From NCBI RefSeq assembly GCF_018205345.1, contig NZ_JADRHM010000001.1, positions 1 to 64,000 on the forward strand: a stretch of DNA of 64,000 nucleotides, written 5' to 3'. How positions within the stretch are numbered: position 1 is the first letter of the stretch; every line of letters begins with the position of its first letter. Origin of the DNA: Fusobacterium sp. DD2. GTDB taxonomy: Bacteria; Fusobacteriota; Fusobacteriia; Fusobacteriales; Fusobacteriaceae. Position numbers and translations under genes: made by a program. Below, in pieces: positions 33,370-52,685 of the stretch. A model generated the notes under the pieces. That model did no database searches, was not told the origin of the DNA, and saw nothing but the letters and a program-made list of their open reading frames with translations.

Positions 33370-33708
33370 AATACTTCCCCCTTTTAATGTATTGGTAATA
33401 TTATATAATTATTTGAGATAAATTACCAGTAAATATAGGAAAATAGAGGATAATTTTATTAGGAAAAAAGAGAAAAAAATGTTATACAAGTAGATAAAAA
33501 ATGATATAATACAAAAAAGCTAAATTTTTTTAAAATTAATGTACTGATTTAGAAAAAAAGAAAAGTTGTGATAGAAATTTAGTAAAAAATGGTTGAAATC
33601 TTTTCAAAGTTATGATACCATTTCAGATATCAGAACTATGGAATACAAAATATCATTAAGAAAGTTGGACTGTTGGTATTTATTGTATTGACTTTTATTT
33701 AAAAATAT

Positions 33709-33776
33709 ACTCATATATACCTGTAATAAGGTCAGGAGTTTCTACGGGTTGCCATTGTAACAAGCCGCTATGAGTT
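33709..33776 (+). promoter_or_regulatory. Guanine-type purine riboswitch, atypical variant
   Basis: P1 is ACTCATA/TATGAGT with the usual ATATA inner segment. P2 is CCTG/CAGG with loop AATAAGG (GG kept), J2/3 is AGTTTCTAC exactly as in the classical family, and P3 GGGTTG/CAAGCC has one G-G mismatch and a loop beginning CC, so the GG-CC loop-loop contact can form. J3/1 is C before TATG, as in guanine binders. Compared with B. subtilis xpt, one C after TCTAC is missing and A73 is absent or replaced by G. It lies ahead of a xanthine permease. Position 33370-33708 upstream is AT-rich leader with a TATAAT at 33505 and no gene. Confidence 0.78.
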
Positions 33777-33782
33777 GAATAT

Positions 33783-33826
33783 AAAATATAATCTTAAGCT
33801 GTATTCAGTTTAGGGCTTTTTATTTT
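33783..33826 (+). terminator. Riboswitch expression platform (candidate terminator)
   Basis: TAAGCTG / CAGTTTA (loop TATT) is followed by GGGC and TTTTTATTTT. An alternative pair, TGAATA (33775-33780) with TATTC (33802-33806), would open it. TATATATGAG at 33834-33843 is the exact complement of the P1 5' strand (CTCATATATA), a second candidate for alternative pairing before the permease start. Confidence 0.5.
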
Positions 33827-39359: not shown

Positions 39360-39388
39360 TTGACATTTAAAAAAAATTATTGTATGAT
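39360..39388 (+). promoter_or_regulatory. Promoter of the His-leader / ABC importer operon
   Basis: TTGACA (39360-39365), a 17-base spacer and TATGAT (39383-39388). Start of transcription is expected near 39395, about 24 bases before the leader ORF and 266 bases before the first transporter gene. Confidence 0.8.
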
Positions 39389-39418
39389 ATAAACACAATA
39401 TTTAAAGAGGAGATAATT

Positions 39419-39481
39419 ATGGAACAGTTTTTAGATTTATCAATTAACAAGAAAACAATTCATCATCACCATCATAGGTAA
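39419..39481 (+). CDS. Histidine-rich leader peptide (attenuator)
   Basis: A 20-codon ORF with a clear RBS (GAGGAG, 39407-39412, 6-base spacer). It encodes MEQFLDLSINKKTI followed by five consecutive His codons (CAT CAT CAC CAT CAT, 39461-39475), then AGG and stop TAA. A run of five His codons 24-48 bases before competing hairpins and a terminator is the arrangement of ribosome-mediated attenuators such as the enterobacterial his leader. Shortage of charged tRNA-His would stall the ribosome here and change the folding of the RNA downstream. The downstream genes are an amino-acid ABC importer, so histidine uptake is the predicted target. The ORF is too short for routine gene calling. Confidence 0.8.
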   Translation: MEQFLDLSINKKTIHHHHHR

Positions 39482-39561
39482 AAGAGTTTGTTGTTATGAT
39501 ATTTATCATAGATGCAGACTCTTGTTCTAGTGCACAAATTAAGAGTCGTGTCTATGATGGT
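39468..39561 (+). promoter_or_regulatory. Competing hairpins of the histidine attenuator
   Basis: ATCATAGATGCAGACTCTT (39505-39523) pairs with AAGAGTCGTGTCTATGAT (39541-39558), a long stem with a one-base bulge and wobble pairs. The segment ACCATCATAG (39468-39477), which includes His codons, is an exact complement of CTATGATGGT (39552-39561). These two pairings exclude each other, so ribosome position on the His codons can choose between them. ATGATA/TATCAT (39496-39509) is a third small hairpin. GATGG (39556-39560) can also pair with CCATC in the terminator stem. Confidence 0.65.
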
Positions 39562-39588
39562 AAATCAAAAAAGTTTCATAAATTTGTA

Positions 39589-39620
39589 AGCCATCTGGAT
39601 AAAAACAGATGGCTTTTTTT
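39589..39620 (+). terminator. Attenuator terminator
   Basis: AGCCATCTG / CAGATGGCT, a perfect 9-bp stem with an 8-base loop, followed by a seven-T run. It lies 41 bases before the substrate-binding-protein start with no gene ending in between, which marks it as a conditional leader terminator rather than the end of xpt transcription. Confidence 0.85.
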
Positions 39621-39660
39621 ATTCTTAAAATAGTGATAAAATAAAAAAGGAGAGAGAAAA

Positions 39661-40425
39661 ATGAAAAAGATTTTAGTATTCATCACAATGTTATTTGGAA
39701 TTCTAGTAACTTCAGCTTTTGGAGCAGATAACTCATTAAAAGATGTACAGGATAAAGGATATTTCATAGTTGGACTTGATGCTACATTTGCACCTATGGG
39801 ATATAGAGATGAAAATGGGGAACTTGTTGGATTTGACATTGATCTTGCTAAAGAGGTAGCTAAGAGAATGGGTGTTGAAGCAAGATTCAAACCATGTGAA
39901 TGGGATGGAATAGTATTTGATCTTAGAAGTAAAAATATAGATATGGTATGGAATGGTATGACAGTAACTCCAGCAAGAGCAAAACAGGTACTATTTTCAG
40001 AACCTTACCTTGCAAATAACCAAATAATCTTTACAAGAAAAGATGAAGGAACTTATAGCATAAAAGATTTAGCTGGTAAAGTTGTAGGAGTTCAACTTGG
40101 AAGTTCTGGAGCATTAGCAGTGGATAAAAGTGCTATTAGAAAAGAGATTAAGGATGTTAAAAAATATGCTACAAATGTTGAAGCACTTATGGACCTTGAA
40201 GCTGGTAGACTTGATGCAGTAGTAATGGATGAAGTATCAGGAAAATACTACAACAAAAAGAAATCAACTTTAAACTACTCTGTAGAACAACTTGCTAATG
40301 AAGAGTTTGCAGTAGCACTTAGAAAAAATGATAAAGCTTTAACAGATGAGATTAATAAACAGCTAAATGCAATGAAAGCTGATGGAACATTTGACACTTT
40401 AAAAAATAAATGGCTAGGCAAATAA
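39661..40425 (+). CDS. Amino-acid ABC transporter substrate-binding protein (predicted histidine)
   Basis: A 254-aa periplasmic binding protein (SBP family 3). It has a signal peptide (residues 1-21, SAFGA), then GLDATFAPMGYRDENGELVGFDIDLAKEVAKRMG-type lobe-1 landmarks and DMVWNGMTVTPARAKQVLFSEPY. Polar-amino-acid binders such as HisJ and ArgT share these. Specificity cannot be read from sequence; the His-codon leader upstream points to histidine. It is the first structural gene of the importer, with GGAGAG before its ATG. Confidence 0.88.
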   Translation: MKKILVFITMLFGILVTSAFGADNSLKDVQDKGYFIVGLDATFAPMGYRDENGELVGFDIDLAKEVAKRMGVEARFKPCEWDGIVFDLRSKNIDMVWNGMTVTPARAKQVLFSEPYLANNQIIFTRKDEGTYSIKDLAGKVVGVQLGSSGALAVDKSAIRKEIKDVKKYATNVEALMDLEAGRLDAVVMDEVSGKYYNKKKSTLNYSVEQLANEEFAVALRKNDKALTDEINKQLNAMKADGTFDTLKNKWLGK

Positions 40426-40453
40426 TAACTTATAATAAAAAAAGGAGATAAAA

Positions 40454-41080
40454 ATGGAAGAAAATATTTTATTTATATTACAGGGATTAGGACTTACAAT
40501 AAAGCTATATATAGCTACTATGATTTTTTCTCTTCCCCTTGGAGTTTTATTATCACTAGGAAGAATATCAAAAAATAGTATATTAAACAATGCTATTCAG
40601 GTGTATACATGGATATTTAGAGGAACTCCTCTTTTACTGCAACTATTCTTTGTATACTATGGATTACCTGTAATTGGGATTACTTTATCTCCTTTTACTG
40701 CAGCATCTTTAACTTTTATAGTAAACTATACAGCTTATTTCTGTGAGATTTTTAGAGGAAGTATCCTTGGAATAGATGATGGGCAGTATGAGGCAGCTAA
40801 GGTTTTAGGAATGAATTATCCACAAACAATGATAAGAATAATAATTCCACAAGCACTTATTACAGCATTGCCACCTCTTACTAATGAAGCAATATCTTTA
40901 ATCAAAGATACTTCTTTAATATCAGCAATAGGAATGGCAGAAATATTAAGAAACTCAAGAGAAATAGTAACTAGAGACTTTTCTATCACTCCATTTATAA
41001 TCTGTGCAGTGATATATCTAATTATTTCAACTGTGGTAGTTCTTATTTGTAAAAAATTAGAGAAAAAGGTGATGATATAA
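40454..41080 (+). CDS. Amino-acid ABC transporter permease
   Basis: A 208-aa inner-membrane permease (HisM/GlnP type). About five helices, with the EAA loop around EAAKVLGMNYPQTMIRIIIPQAL (residues about 114-136) and the following ALPPLTNEAISLIKDTSL segment. A single permease gene suggests a homodimer. Its stop overlaps the ATPase start by one base (TAATG). AAAGGAG RBS. Confidence 0.92.
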   Translation: MEENILFILQGLGLTIKLYIATMIFSLPLGVLLSLGRISKNSILNNAIQVYTWIFRGTPLLLQLFFVYYGLPVIGITLSPFTAASLTFIVNYTAYFCEIFRGSILGIDDGQYEAAKVLGMNYPQTMIRIIIPQALITALPPLTNEAISLIKDTSLISAIGMAEILRNSREIVTRDFSITPFIICAVIYLIISTVVVLICKKLEKKVMI

Positions 41081-41748
41081 TGATAATCAAAATTTCAGAT
41101 GTGTATAAAAAATACAATGGTACAGATAATATTTTAAATGGAGTAAATCTTACAATAAACAAAGGAGAAGTAGTATCAATTATAGGAGCTTCTGGTGGTG
41201 GAAAATCAACACTTCTAAGATGCATAATTGGACTTGAAGAGATAGATGGTGGAAGTATTGATACACCTGAATTGAAAAAAATGGGAATGGTATTTCAATC
41301 ATTTAATCTTTTCCCTCATATGACTGCTATTCAAAATATTATGGAATCACTTGTTGTGGTAGATAAGATGAAAAAGGAAGATGCCAGAAAGATTGGGATG
41401 AAGCTTTTAGATAGAGTTGGACTTGCAGATAGAGCAGATTTCTATCCAAAGGCACTGTCAGGTGGACAAAAACAGAGAGTTGCTATAGCCAGAGCAATGG
41501 CAAGAAACCCTGAAGTTATGCTATTTGATGAACCTACATCAGCACTTGACCCAGAGATGGTAAAAGAGGTTCAAAATGTAATTCAGCATCTGAAAGACAA
41601 CAGTGATATGACTATGGTAATAGTAAGCCACGAACTTGATTTTGTAAATAAGATATCTGATAGAATTGTGGTAATGGAAAACGGCAATGTTAAAGAGATT
41701 ATTGATAACAGAGCAAAAAAGAGTGAAGAAAGTGTAAAAAATAATTGA
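41080..41748 (+). CDS. Amino-acid ABC transporter ATP-binding protein
   Basis: A 222-aa ATPase. Walker A is GASGGGKST (36-44), the Q-loop VFQSFNLFPH, signature LSGGQKQRVAIARA, and Walker B LFDEPTSALDP. It is about 20 aa shorter than usual (240-250 aa), because the variable region between Walker A and the Q-loop is short (EEIDGGSIDTPELKKMG). All catalytic motifs are intact. It energises the upstream permease and binding protein. It terminates within the promoter of the next gene. Confidence 0.93.
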   Translation: MIIKISDVYKKYNGTDNILNGVNLTINKGEVVSIIGASGGGKSTLLRCIIGLEEIDGGSIDTPELKKMGMVFQSFNLFPHMTAIQNIMESLVVVDKMKKEDARKIGMKLLDRVGLADRADFYPKALSGGQKQRVAIARAMARNPEVMLFDEPTSALDPEMVKEVQNVIQHLKDNSDMTMVIVSHELDFVNKISDRIVVMENGNVKEIIDNRAKKSEESVKNN

Positions 41749-42185: not shown

Positions 42186-43292
42186 TTATTTTAATAGGTA
42201 TGCTGGAAAAAGGTACCTGTCTTTATGAAAAATATAGATAATTCTATCATCTATAACAGGATATTTTATAGTGACACTCTGACCATTCATACCTGAAAAA
42301 TATTCATTTGTATATTGAAGATTTCTAAGTCTTACCTTAGAATCATTAATTTTTCTAGTAGCACTTTGAAGAAGTATATCAAGTTTTCTTAAGAACTTAC
42401 TGTTTTCAAGAAGTTTAATATTTGGAGAAAAGGCATAGTCTTTCTCCTGAATATAGAGATAGCTGCTTAAAAAACCTGACAATTCATCTATAGAGATATT
42501 CTTATTATTTTCATCATAAAAAGATTGAATATCAGCTTTTATAAACTCAACAAATTTAGCAATTTCACTATTTTCAGTGTAGTGTTCATAGATTCTTATT
42601 CCAGTCTCCTGATATATCTCTTTTAAAAGCTGTTTATTGCTTATCTCCTGTGATGCTACTAAAATATCCTCAGGGAAGAGTTTTTTTCCTGTGAGAATAG
42701 CTGTTTTAATAAGAGTCTCTCTTATAAAGTTTAAGATAACATTGAGACTTGCAACATCACTGTTTATCATGAAATGTATAGGTTTTAATGATGCAACATC
42801 TAAAATTATAAGAAGTTGTGGAATAATATCTTTTTTATCCTCTCTGTTTGCAAATATATAGAGAGGAATATCCAATAGAATATAGCATTGGTGTTCTTTT
42901 TTAATCTTATCTAAATACATAATAGTATCCTTATTAAAAAAGGCATCTATATTATTAACAATTCTATAAAATGTTGCATAGCTTATTGATAGATCTTTAG
43001 TAATTTTTTTCTTATAGTGTCTGTATAGTTTGGTGATATTTGTTTCAGTAGTTTCTGAGCAAAGCTTTTCTATCTTTTTCAGGTGGGTATCATCTACATT
43101 ACGGAAAGAATCCTTATCTTCACGAGTTTTTTTCTCAAGTCCTAACATCCCATTCTTTTTATATGCCTGAACCCATCTTTTAAGAGTTGCATAGGAGATA
43201 TTTTGCTCCTTTTCAATCTCTTTAAGCTTTTTTTCTTTTTTCAAAAAAGGCTCAATTATTTTGAAACGATAAATTTCAATTTCTTTATCCAT
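42186..43292 (-). CDS. Transposase-derived HTH protein (Mu/TnsB-like, probably domesticated)
   Basis: A 368-aa protein. N-terminal helix-turn-helix (residues about 15-55: KLKEIEKEQNISYATLKRW) and a second HTH (about 75-115) are followed by a region like an RNase-H transposase core (about 130-270) starting CYILLDIPLYIF and LLIILDVASLKP. The C-terminus (NGQSVTIKYPVIDDRIIYIF) resembles Mu_C. Where the second Asp and its DNG motif belong, the sequence reads LVASQEISN, so the DDE triad seems incomplete. No terminal repeats or target duplication are visible. It lies divergent from the PTS gene and may regulate it. RBS AAGGAG with a 13-base spacer. Confidence 0.55.
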   Translation of the reverse strand: MDKEIEIYRFKIIEPFLKKEKKLKEIEKEQNISYATLKRWVQAYKKNGMLGLEKKTREDKDSFRNVDDTHLKKIEKLCSETTETNITKLYRHYKKKITKDLSISYATFYRIVNNIDAFFNKDTIMYLDKIKKEHQCYILLDIPLYIFANREDKKDIIPQLLIILDVASLKPIHFMINSDVASLNVILNFIRETLIKTAILTGKKLFPEDILVASQEISNKQLLKEIYQETGIRIYEHYTENSEIAKFVEFIKADIQSFYDENNKNISIDELSGFLSSYLYIQEKDYAFSPNIKLLENSKFLRKLDILLQSATRKINDSKVRLRNLQYTNEYFSGMNGQSVTIKYPVIDDRIIYIFHKDRYLFPAYLLK

Positions 43293-52425: not shown

Positions 52426-52572
52426 CCTCTGTCCTTTTACCTGAGAGTTTAGTCCAATTGCTTGGGTTTGCTCCTTCGGTGCTCTAAGAGTCTCTCCAGA
52501 GGCTCGTCCAATATAGGTCTTTTTACCTGAAAGATTCACTTCGTCGGTGGCATTTCTGCTCTCTCCCTATAT
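52426..52572 (-). promoter_or_regulatory. Tandem glycine riboswitch
   Basis: Two gcvT aptamers are visible on the minus strand. Aptamer 1 (52572-52511) is closed by ATATAGG/CCTATAT and contains GGGAGAGAGC, GCCACCGA and TTTCAGGTAAAAAGAC. Aptamer 2 (52502-52426) is closed by CCTCTGG/CCAGAGG-like ends and contains GGAGAGAC, GCACCGAAGGAGC and CTCTCAGGTAAAAGGACAG. The linker is only about 8 bases. Fusobacterial glycine riboswitches are well known in this layout. Promoter sequence lies within 52573-52685, which otherwise holds no gene. Confidence 0.95.
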
Positions 52573-52685
52573 CTTCATCCGAATTTTATTCAATTTTTAT
52601 ATTTTTTAATTGATTTGATAAATGTAATGATAGACCATTTTATTTCATTTGTCAATAGCTTTTTCTAAATTTTGTATAATTATAC

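Follow-up and report, generated by a model that had tools for sequence, protein, structure and literature searches.

We propose that the DNA preceding an ABC amino-acid importer operon of Fusobacterium sp. DD2 encodes a ribosome-mediated transcription attenuator of the his/trp type, the scaffold of which is recoded elsewhere, and we place the probability of this reading at about 0.9. The leader lies within a window of 64,000 nucleotides (contig NZ_JADRHM010000001.1, positions 1 to 64,000), the whole stretch of DNA that was analysed and to which coordinates refer unless stated. Its anatomy, its conservation, the covariation of its stems and the match between leader codons and downstream genes all support this assignment. 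Furthermore, versions of this RNA switch with codons for at least eight further amino acids appear to recur across the phylum, and the switch appears to explain the trpB motif that has been proposed elsewhere as a riboswitch. Attenuation of this type has precedents; what appears to be new is the scaffold, together with its extension to many amino acids and the reassignment of the trpB motif.

Anatomy and conservation of the leader

Three marks of an attenuator are found together at this locus (Table 1), namely a short ORF preceded by a Shine-Dalgarno (SD) sequence and holding a run of cognate codons, an antiterminator (itself weakly covarying) among mutually exclusive stems that ribosome position would select, and an intrinsic terminator ahead of the structural genes. 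The initial annotation had described the consensus promoter, a 20-codon ORF with a good ribosome binding site and the run CAT CAT CAC CAT CAT, and the genes for a binding protein, a permease and an ATPase downstream, all of which we recover. It had also recognised the terminator, the stem of which it gave as a perfect 9 bp and which proves to be 10 bp (39588-39597/39606-39615), followed by TTTTT. Of its two mutually exclusive hairpins, the pairing of segments A and D stands as described (39468-39477/39552-39561, 10 bp) and that of C and D lies close to the register proposed there (39505-39523/39541-39558).

Table 1. Features of the leader and of the importer operon in the window
Feature	Position	Strand	Basis or remark
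Sigma-70 promoter, TTGACA-17 nt-TATGAT	39360-39388	+	11/12 consensus positions
Promoter hexamers TTGACA and TATGAT	39360-39365 and 39383-39388	+	Sequence reading
SD sequence GAGGAG of leader ORF	39407-39412	+	Sequence reading
Leader peptide ORF, 20 codons, MEQFLDLSINKKTIHHHHHR then stop	39419-39481	+	ATG 39419, TAA 39479-39481; orthologues in 12/12 genus genomes
Five consecutive His codons CAT CAT CAC CAT CAT, proposed stall site	39461-39475	+	Kept in 12/12; overlaps segment A
Segment A	39468-39477	+	Able to pair with D
Segment B, AAGAGTTTGT, directly 3' of stop codon	39482-39491	+	Partner C; cross-class covariation
Segment C	39503-39524	+	Pairs with B (via 39514-39523) or D; folding and covariation
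Segment D	39540-39561	+	Partners C (attenuated), E (antiterminator, via 39549-39561) and A (no ribosome); folding and covariation
Segment E, terminator 5' arm and loop start	39588-39601	+	Pairs with D (via 39590-39601) as antiterminator, or with F; folding and swap test
Segment F, terminator 3' arm (39606-39615), and T tract (39616-39620)	39606-39620	+	E:F covariation
Substrate-binding protein, polar amino-acid ABC importer, predicted histidine	39661-40425	+	Profile matches; below every equivalog cut-off
ABC importer permease	40454-41080	+	TIGR01726 above its cut-off
ABC importer ATPase	41080-41748	+	Profile match

A chance origin of this pattern is rejected. An SD-preceded short ORF with at least four consecutive His codons occurs once in the window and with a mean of 0.0 in 200 shuffles, and the sole terminator-like site in 401 bases is the terminator of this leader (mean of 0.0 in shuffles). 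A search with the leader DNA recovered it in all 12 genomes of the genus examined, always before the same binding-protein gene. In each of the 12 an SD-like purine stretch precedes an ORF of 17-20 codons that ends in HHHHH, then R or G, then the stop, and all five His codons are retained with CAT and CAC exchanged between lineages and His constant. As the initial annotation had expected of related genomes, both the His codons and the terminator are kept (12/12), and stems B:C, C:D and E:F covary as described below. Other genera of the family also retain the leader, in which the His codons number about 3 to 6 and sometimes share the run with Tyr or Gln.

Elsewhere in the window lie a purine riboswitch (33691-33790, plus strand) and a tandem glycine riboswitch (52426-52578, minus strand).

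Alternative stems and the proposed switch

In our model, when charged tRNA-His is plentiful the ribosome would pass the five His codons and reach the stop codon, where it would cover segment B. Segment C would then pair with D, the folding with a ribosome at the stop codon giving 39503-39515/39548-39560 and 39517-39524/39540-39547, and E would be left free for F, ending transcription before the importer genes. Under a shortage of His-tRNA the ribosome would stall on the His codons, leaving B available to C; in the folding with the A site on the first His codon, this stem is 39482-39491/39514-39523, extended by 39494-39500/39505-39511. Once B:C has formed, D would pair with E before F exists (39549-39554/39596-39601 and 39556-39561/39590-39595 in the folding of the window), and RNA polymerase would continue into the importer genes. 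In an RNA without a ribosome, folding indicates that A:D and B:C are able to coexist once the transcript reaches D; E would stay free for the terminator, and termination is therefore predicted. Finally, with other codon runs the scaffold would control other amino-acid genes in Fusobacteriota and Firmicutes. Ribosome stalling, the response to histidine and the substrate of the importer are what we infer in this model from sequence. Folding also gives an answer as to which conformer would be the antiterminator, a point that the initial annotation had left unnamed in a reading, ribosome-dependent attenuation, that is otherwise supported: the predicted antiterminator is D:E, 39549-39561 with 39590-39601.

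These foldings are limited to RNA that the ribosome has yet to reach, at a time when the 3' arm of the terminator is still to be transcribed, and exclude pairing across the ribosome. In 73/78 related attenuators the stalled state sequesters segment E more strongly, a shift greater than that of shuffled spacers, with p values that are indicative only as the sequences are related; L183, which has no clear regulatory codon, was excluded from the tests. The 73/78 result depends on excluding pairing across the stalled ribosome, as folding that allowed it gave no excess over shuffles; that setup is physically unrealistic and was replaced by folding ahead of the ribosome. Equilibrium folding of the whole leader was uninformative, the terminator forming in nearly all sequences and ribosome states. 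As the complete terminator nearly always wins at equilibrium, the switch must be kinetic, like classical attenuators.

Inside the His class alone the stems are too conserved to be informative, except for the E:F terminator, and covariation was therefore assessed in an alignment of 25 sequences spanning the amino-acid classes, the p values of which overstate independence because the sequences are related. In B:C, 6/8 pairs change on both sides, a value reached by 1/500 shuffles, and the number of cells with two-sided changes and the covariation score were each reached by 0/500. Two-sided changes occur in 9/15 pairs of C:D and in 8/10 pairs of E:F, each reached by 0/500 shuffles. The first register tried for C:D was taken from the window and was unfit for other rows because of a local length difference in the D of the window. 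Segment C thus shares two covarying stems, with B, C and D changing in concert: in column 55 of the alignment (segment C) about half of the sequences have U and the rest C, and columns 8 (B) and 82 (D) switch between A and G to match. For D:E, 79.5% of cells are kept versus at most 41% when the segments are slid by 1 to 3 columns, and its covariation is weak, the observed number of paired cells being reached by 35/500 shuffles. When segments are swapped between classes, B:C and D:E are both weaker than with their native partners. For A:D, 89.9% of cells are paired.

Recoded leaders in Fusobacteriota and the trpB motif

The Rfam model of the trpB motif (RF04312) matches the window full-length at 39505-39624 with 39.2 bits, below its gathering score of 59, and finds matches at E 1e-3 or better in 38/98 Fusobacteriota genomes, 0/98 being over the cut-off; 11 of the 12 genus genomes match at that level. 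Upstream of these matches stand His leaders before HisZ, Tyr runs before TyrS, Pro-containing leaders before PutP, Trp leaders before TrpX and mixed aromatic leaders before DAHP synthase, the His leaders before HisZ being present in genomes with His synthesis. Among all RF04312 matches, four (L081, L083, L085 and L185) have no fitting leader and were judged false.

A second model, R1, runs from segment B to the T tract with the leader ORF left out, includes two clostridial sequences in its training set, and matches 59/98 Fusobacteriota genomes. At 60 further R1 matches the leaders were chosen by SD, length and position only, blind to their residues. Among 39 loci with a gene that points to a single amino acid or pathway, the most enriched leader residue agrees with the gene in 35, and the four misses are PutP leaders, which do contain Pro. 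Taking one locus per gene family, the mean match is 8.64 of 9 (permutation p = 0.0001, in which independence is overstated as the sequences are related). Classes absent from the training set are found all the same, namely Asn (AsnA), Thr (ThrS, Asd) and Met (MetG, MetN). An NCBIfam check of the gene names, made for ten representatives, placed MetN, PutP and HisZ below their equivalog cut-offs, and these three are named by best match. Before MetY and homoserine dehydrogenase stand four Met-rich leaders whose SDs are weak; they were read by eye and left unscored. The genome of the window itself holds a second attenuator of the same design, with the leader peptide MKTLIFGITAQFNNNNNMSRFGL before asparagine synthetase AsnA (L216; G000:C2:17863-17965, minus strand); another R1 match in this genome, at G000:C5 (L217), has no leader and was judged false. 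A peptide attenuator in Fusobacteriota, which the initial annotation took to be unusual on a transporter operon, is not so in light of the R1 and codon counts; rather, such attenuators form a widespread system of the phylum that is apparently undescribed so far.

Some members depart from the single-leader, single-residue pattern. At L087 two tandem Tyr-run leaders (YYYYY and YYYYYYY), with a terminator each, precede an AGCS-type sodium:amino-acid symporter. The leaders of L265 and L270, LTITTTIIIM and LISTTTTIIMI, carry Thr/Ile runs before aspartate-semialdehyde dehydrogenase and resemble the enterobacterial thr leader. In three clostridial members (L182, L183 and L184) a single leader is followed by two terminators in succession.

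The trpB motif, of which more than 900 members are reported from Firmicutes and Fusobacteria, entered the literature as a strong riboswitch candidate, and the section that describes it states that a classic attenuator cannot be ruled out and makes no mention of a leader ORF (PMC11109978). In the Firmicutes order of genome G360, RF04312 matches 74/199 genomes at E 1e-5, 41 of them over the cut-off, and in the phylum of G109 it matches 0/392. Each of the 30 trpB-motif loci that were read in the former order has a leader that follows an SD and places Trp codons close to its end, usually as WQSWRR or WQNWRR before the stop, and the leader ends 9-21 nt before the motif. Downstream of most of the 30 lie TrpX-type ABC genes (TrpXYZ) or trpB; at L187, L190 and L208 neither falls inside the stretch read. 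Clostridial members have Phe or Tyr leaders before NSS-family symporters.

We tentatively propose, at slightly under even odds, that a single ancestral scaffold has been recoded (His, Trp, Tyr, Phe, Pro, Thr, Asn, Met and aromatic mixes) and has spread through Fusobacteriota and Firmicutes as a codon-programmable counterpart of the T-box, the trpB riboswitch candidate being one branch of it. The sequence of the hairpin may act beyond pairing in such a scaffold, for example in pausing RNA polymerase so that the ribosome catches up. Convergence of the Fusobacteriota elements and the Firmicutes trpB motif on one architecture, rather than common ancestry, is a serious possibility, if a somewhat doubtful one, and it draws on the 39.2 bits of the window against a gathering score of 59 and on the fact that no Fusobacteriota match passes the RF04312 cut-off. 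Against convergence, a core like CATAGATAC...GTATCTATG is common to both sets, and R1 recovers the over-cut-off trpB motif of G360 at E 5.7e-9 while matching only 3/399 Firmicutes genomes at E 1e-5, all three with fitting leaders, though with two clostridial sequences in its training set. Even with those two sequences, the R1 search of Firmicutes is a specificity control and a link between both sets.

Importer substrate, rival classes and known systems

The importer of the window is predicted to carry histidine, from the codons of its leader and from a missing biosynthetic gene. HisD (histidinol dehydrogenase, PF00815) was found in 0/12 genomes of the genus and is present in 37/98 Fusobacteriota genomes; we therefore predict that the genus is auxotrophic for histidine and relies on its import. 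An attenuator that senses histidine could also control an importer that mainly moves another, or several, cationic or polar amino acids. The binding protein indeed scores best with Lys/Arg/Orn and cystine models, and, as it falls under all equivalog cut-offs, its ligand is not set by family. We nevertheless consider a different main substrate unlikely, given that the His-run leader stays with the same importer across genera, that the genus is without HisD and that sibling leaders match the amino acid of their genes.

Several observations concern the surroundings and relatives of this operon. In one genus genome (L043; G001:C1:1201881-1202498, minus strand) an in-frame TAA interrupts the binding-protein gene. 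In another genus an importer paralogue (L031-L034) has a promoter and a terminator and no leader ORF, and a short conserved TTTAGTAGACTAAAGTAA precedes the terminator, some 150-200 bases ahead of the gene for the binding protein. A 368-aa ORF that lies immediately beyond the importer operon of the window (42186-43292, minus strand) resembles a helix-turn-helix transposase or integrase.

Far less probable is that the conserved hairpin is a riboswitch aptamer directly recognising an amino acid or a metabolite related to one, the proposal made for the trpB motif, with the ORF incidental or secondary. The C:D hairpin is conserved in sequence beyond pairing, and the trpB motif section rates the motif a strong candidate while leaving room for an attenuator (PMC11109978), but the hairpin remains similar from locus to locus and it is the codon run that varies with the downstream gene (His, Trp, Tyr, Thr, Asn, Met, Pro), C pairs with B as well, B sits just 3' of the leader stop, and the Firmicutes trpB-motif loci read have Trp-codon leaders in 30/30 cases. 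A T-box or other tRNA-binding leader is very improbable: T-boxes are present but sparse in Fusobacteriota (21/98 genomes, 2 over the cut-off), and RF00230 fails to match the window with E values as high as 10 allowed, or its genome at E 0.01. At gathering score no Rfam model matches the attenuator locus, and the covariance model of the His leader (RF00514) has no match there.

Fusobacteriota include important members of the human mouth and gut. The attenuator reading would give them an apparently undescribed system of amino-acid gene control, allow leader codons (His, Pro, Met, Trp and others) to reveal what a transporter carries, and provide a concrete alternative to an orphan riboswitch candidate of which over 900 members are published. 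If confirmed in Firmicutes, it would require that ribosomes stay close to RNA polymerase on such leaders, which bears on transcription-translation coupling there.

The hisL leader of enterobacteria follows a six-segment logic, A to F. The window leader shares with it (RF00514) this logic as well as the His-codon run in a short ORF, the alternative stems and the intrinsic terminator, and differs in that its segment A pairs with D and in that it controls an importer in a predicted His auxotroph, whereas hisL controls a biosynthesis operon. Proteobacteria and some Firmicutes have described His-leader attenuators on their his biosynthesis operons (PMC9413887), and bacilli have them on hisZ and a hisS paralogue (PMC2965389); in the open-access library searched we found no description of a His-leader attenuator or of such a system for Fusobacteriota. 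The leaders of the Firmicutes his operon and of bacilli hisZ/hisS likewise place His runs in a short ORF before attenuator and terminator hairpins, but belong to another phylum and to biosynthesis or tRNA-ligase genes. The trpB motif (SRC-39-1, RF04312) spans the same C:D hairpin and terminator; as described in its section the published element starts at the hairpin, with the leader ORF unmentioned (PMC11109978), and its loci carry Trp codons where the window leader carries His codons. Finally, as in the T-box (RF00230), one scaffold serves many amino acids via changed codons, but the window leader would sense through translation of its leader ORF, whereas the T-box does so through tRNA binding.
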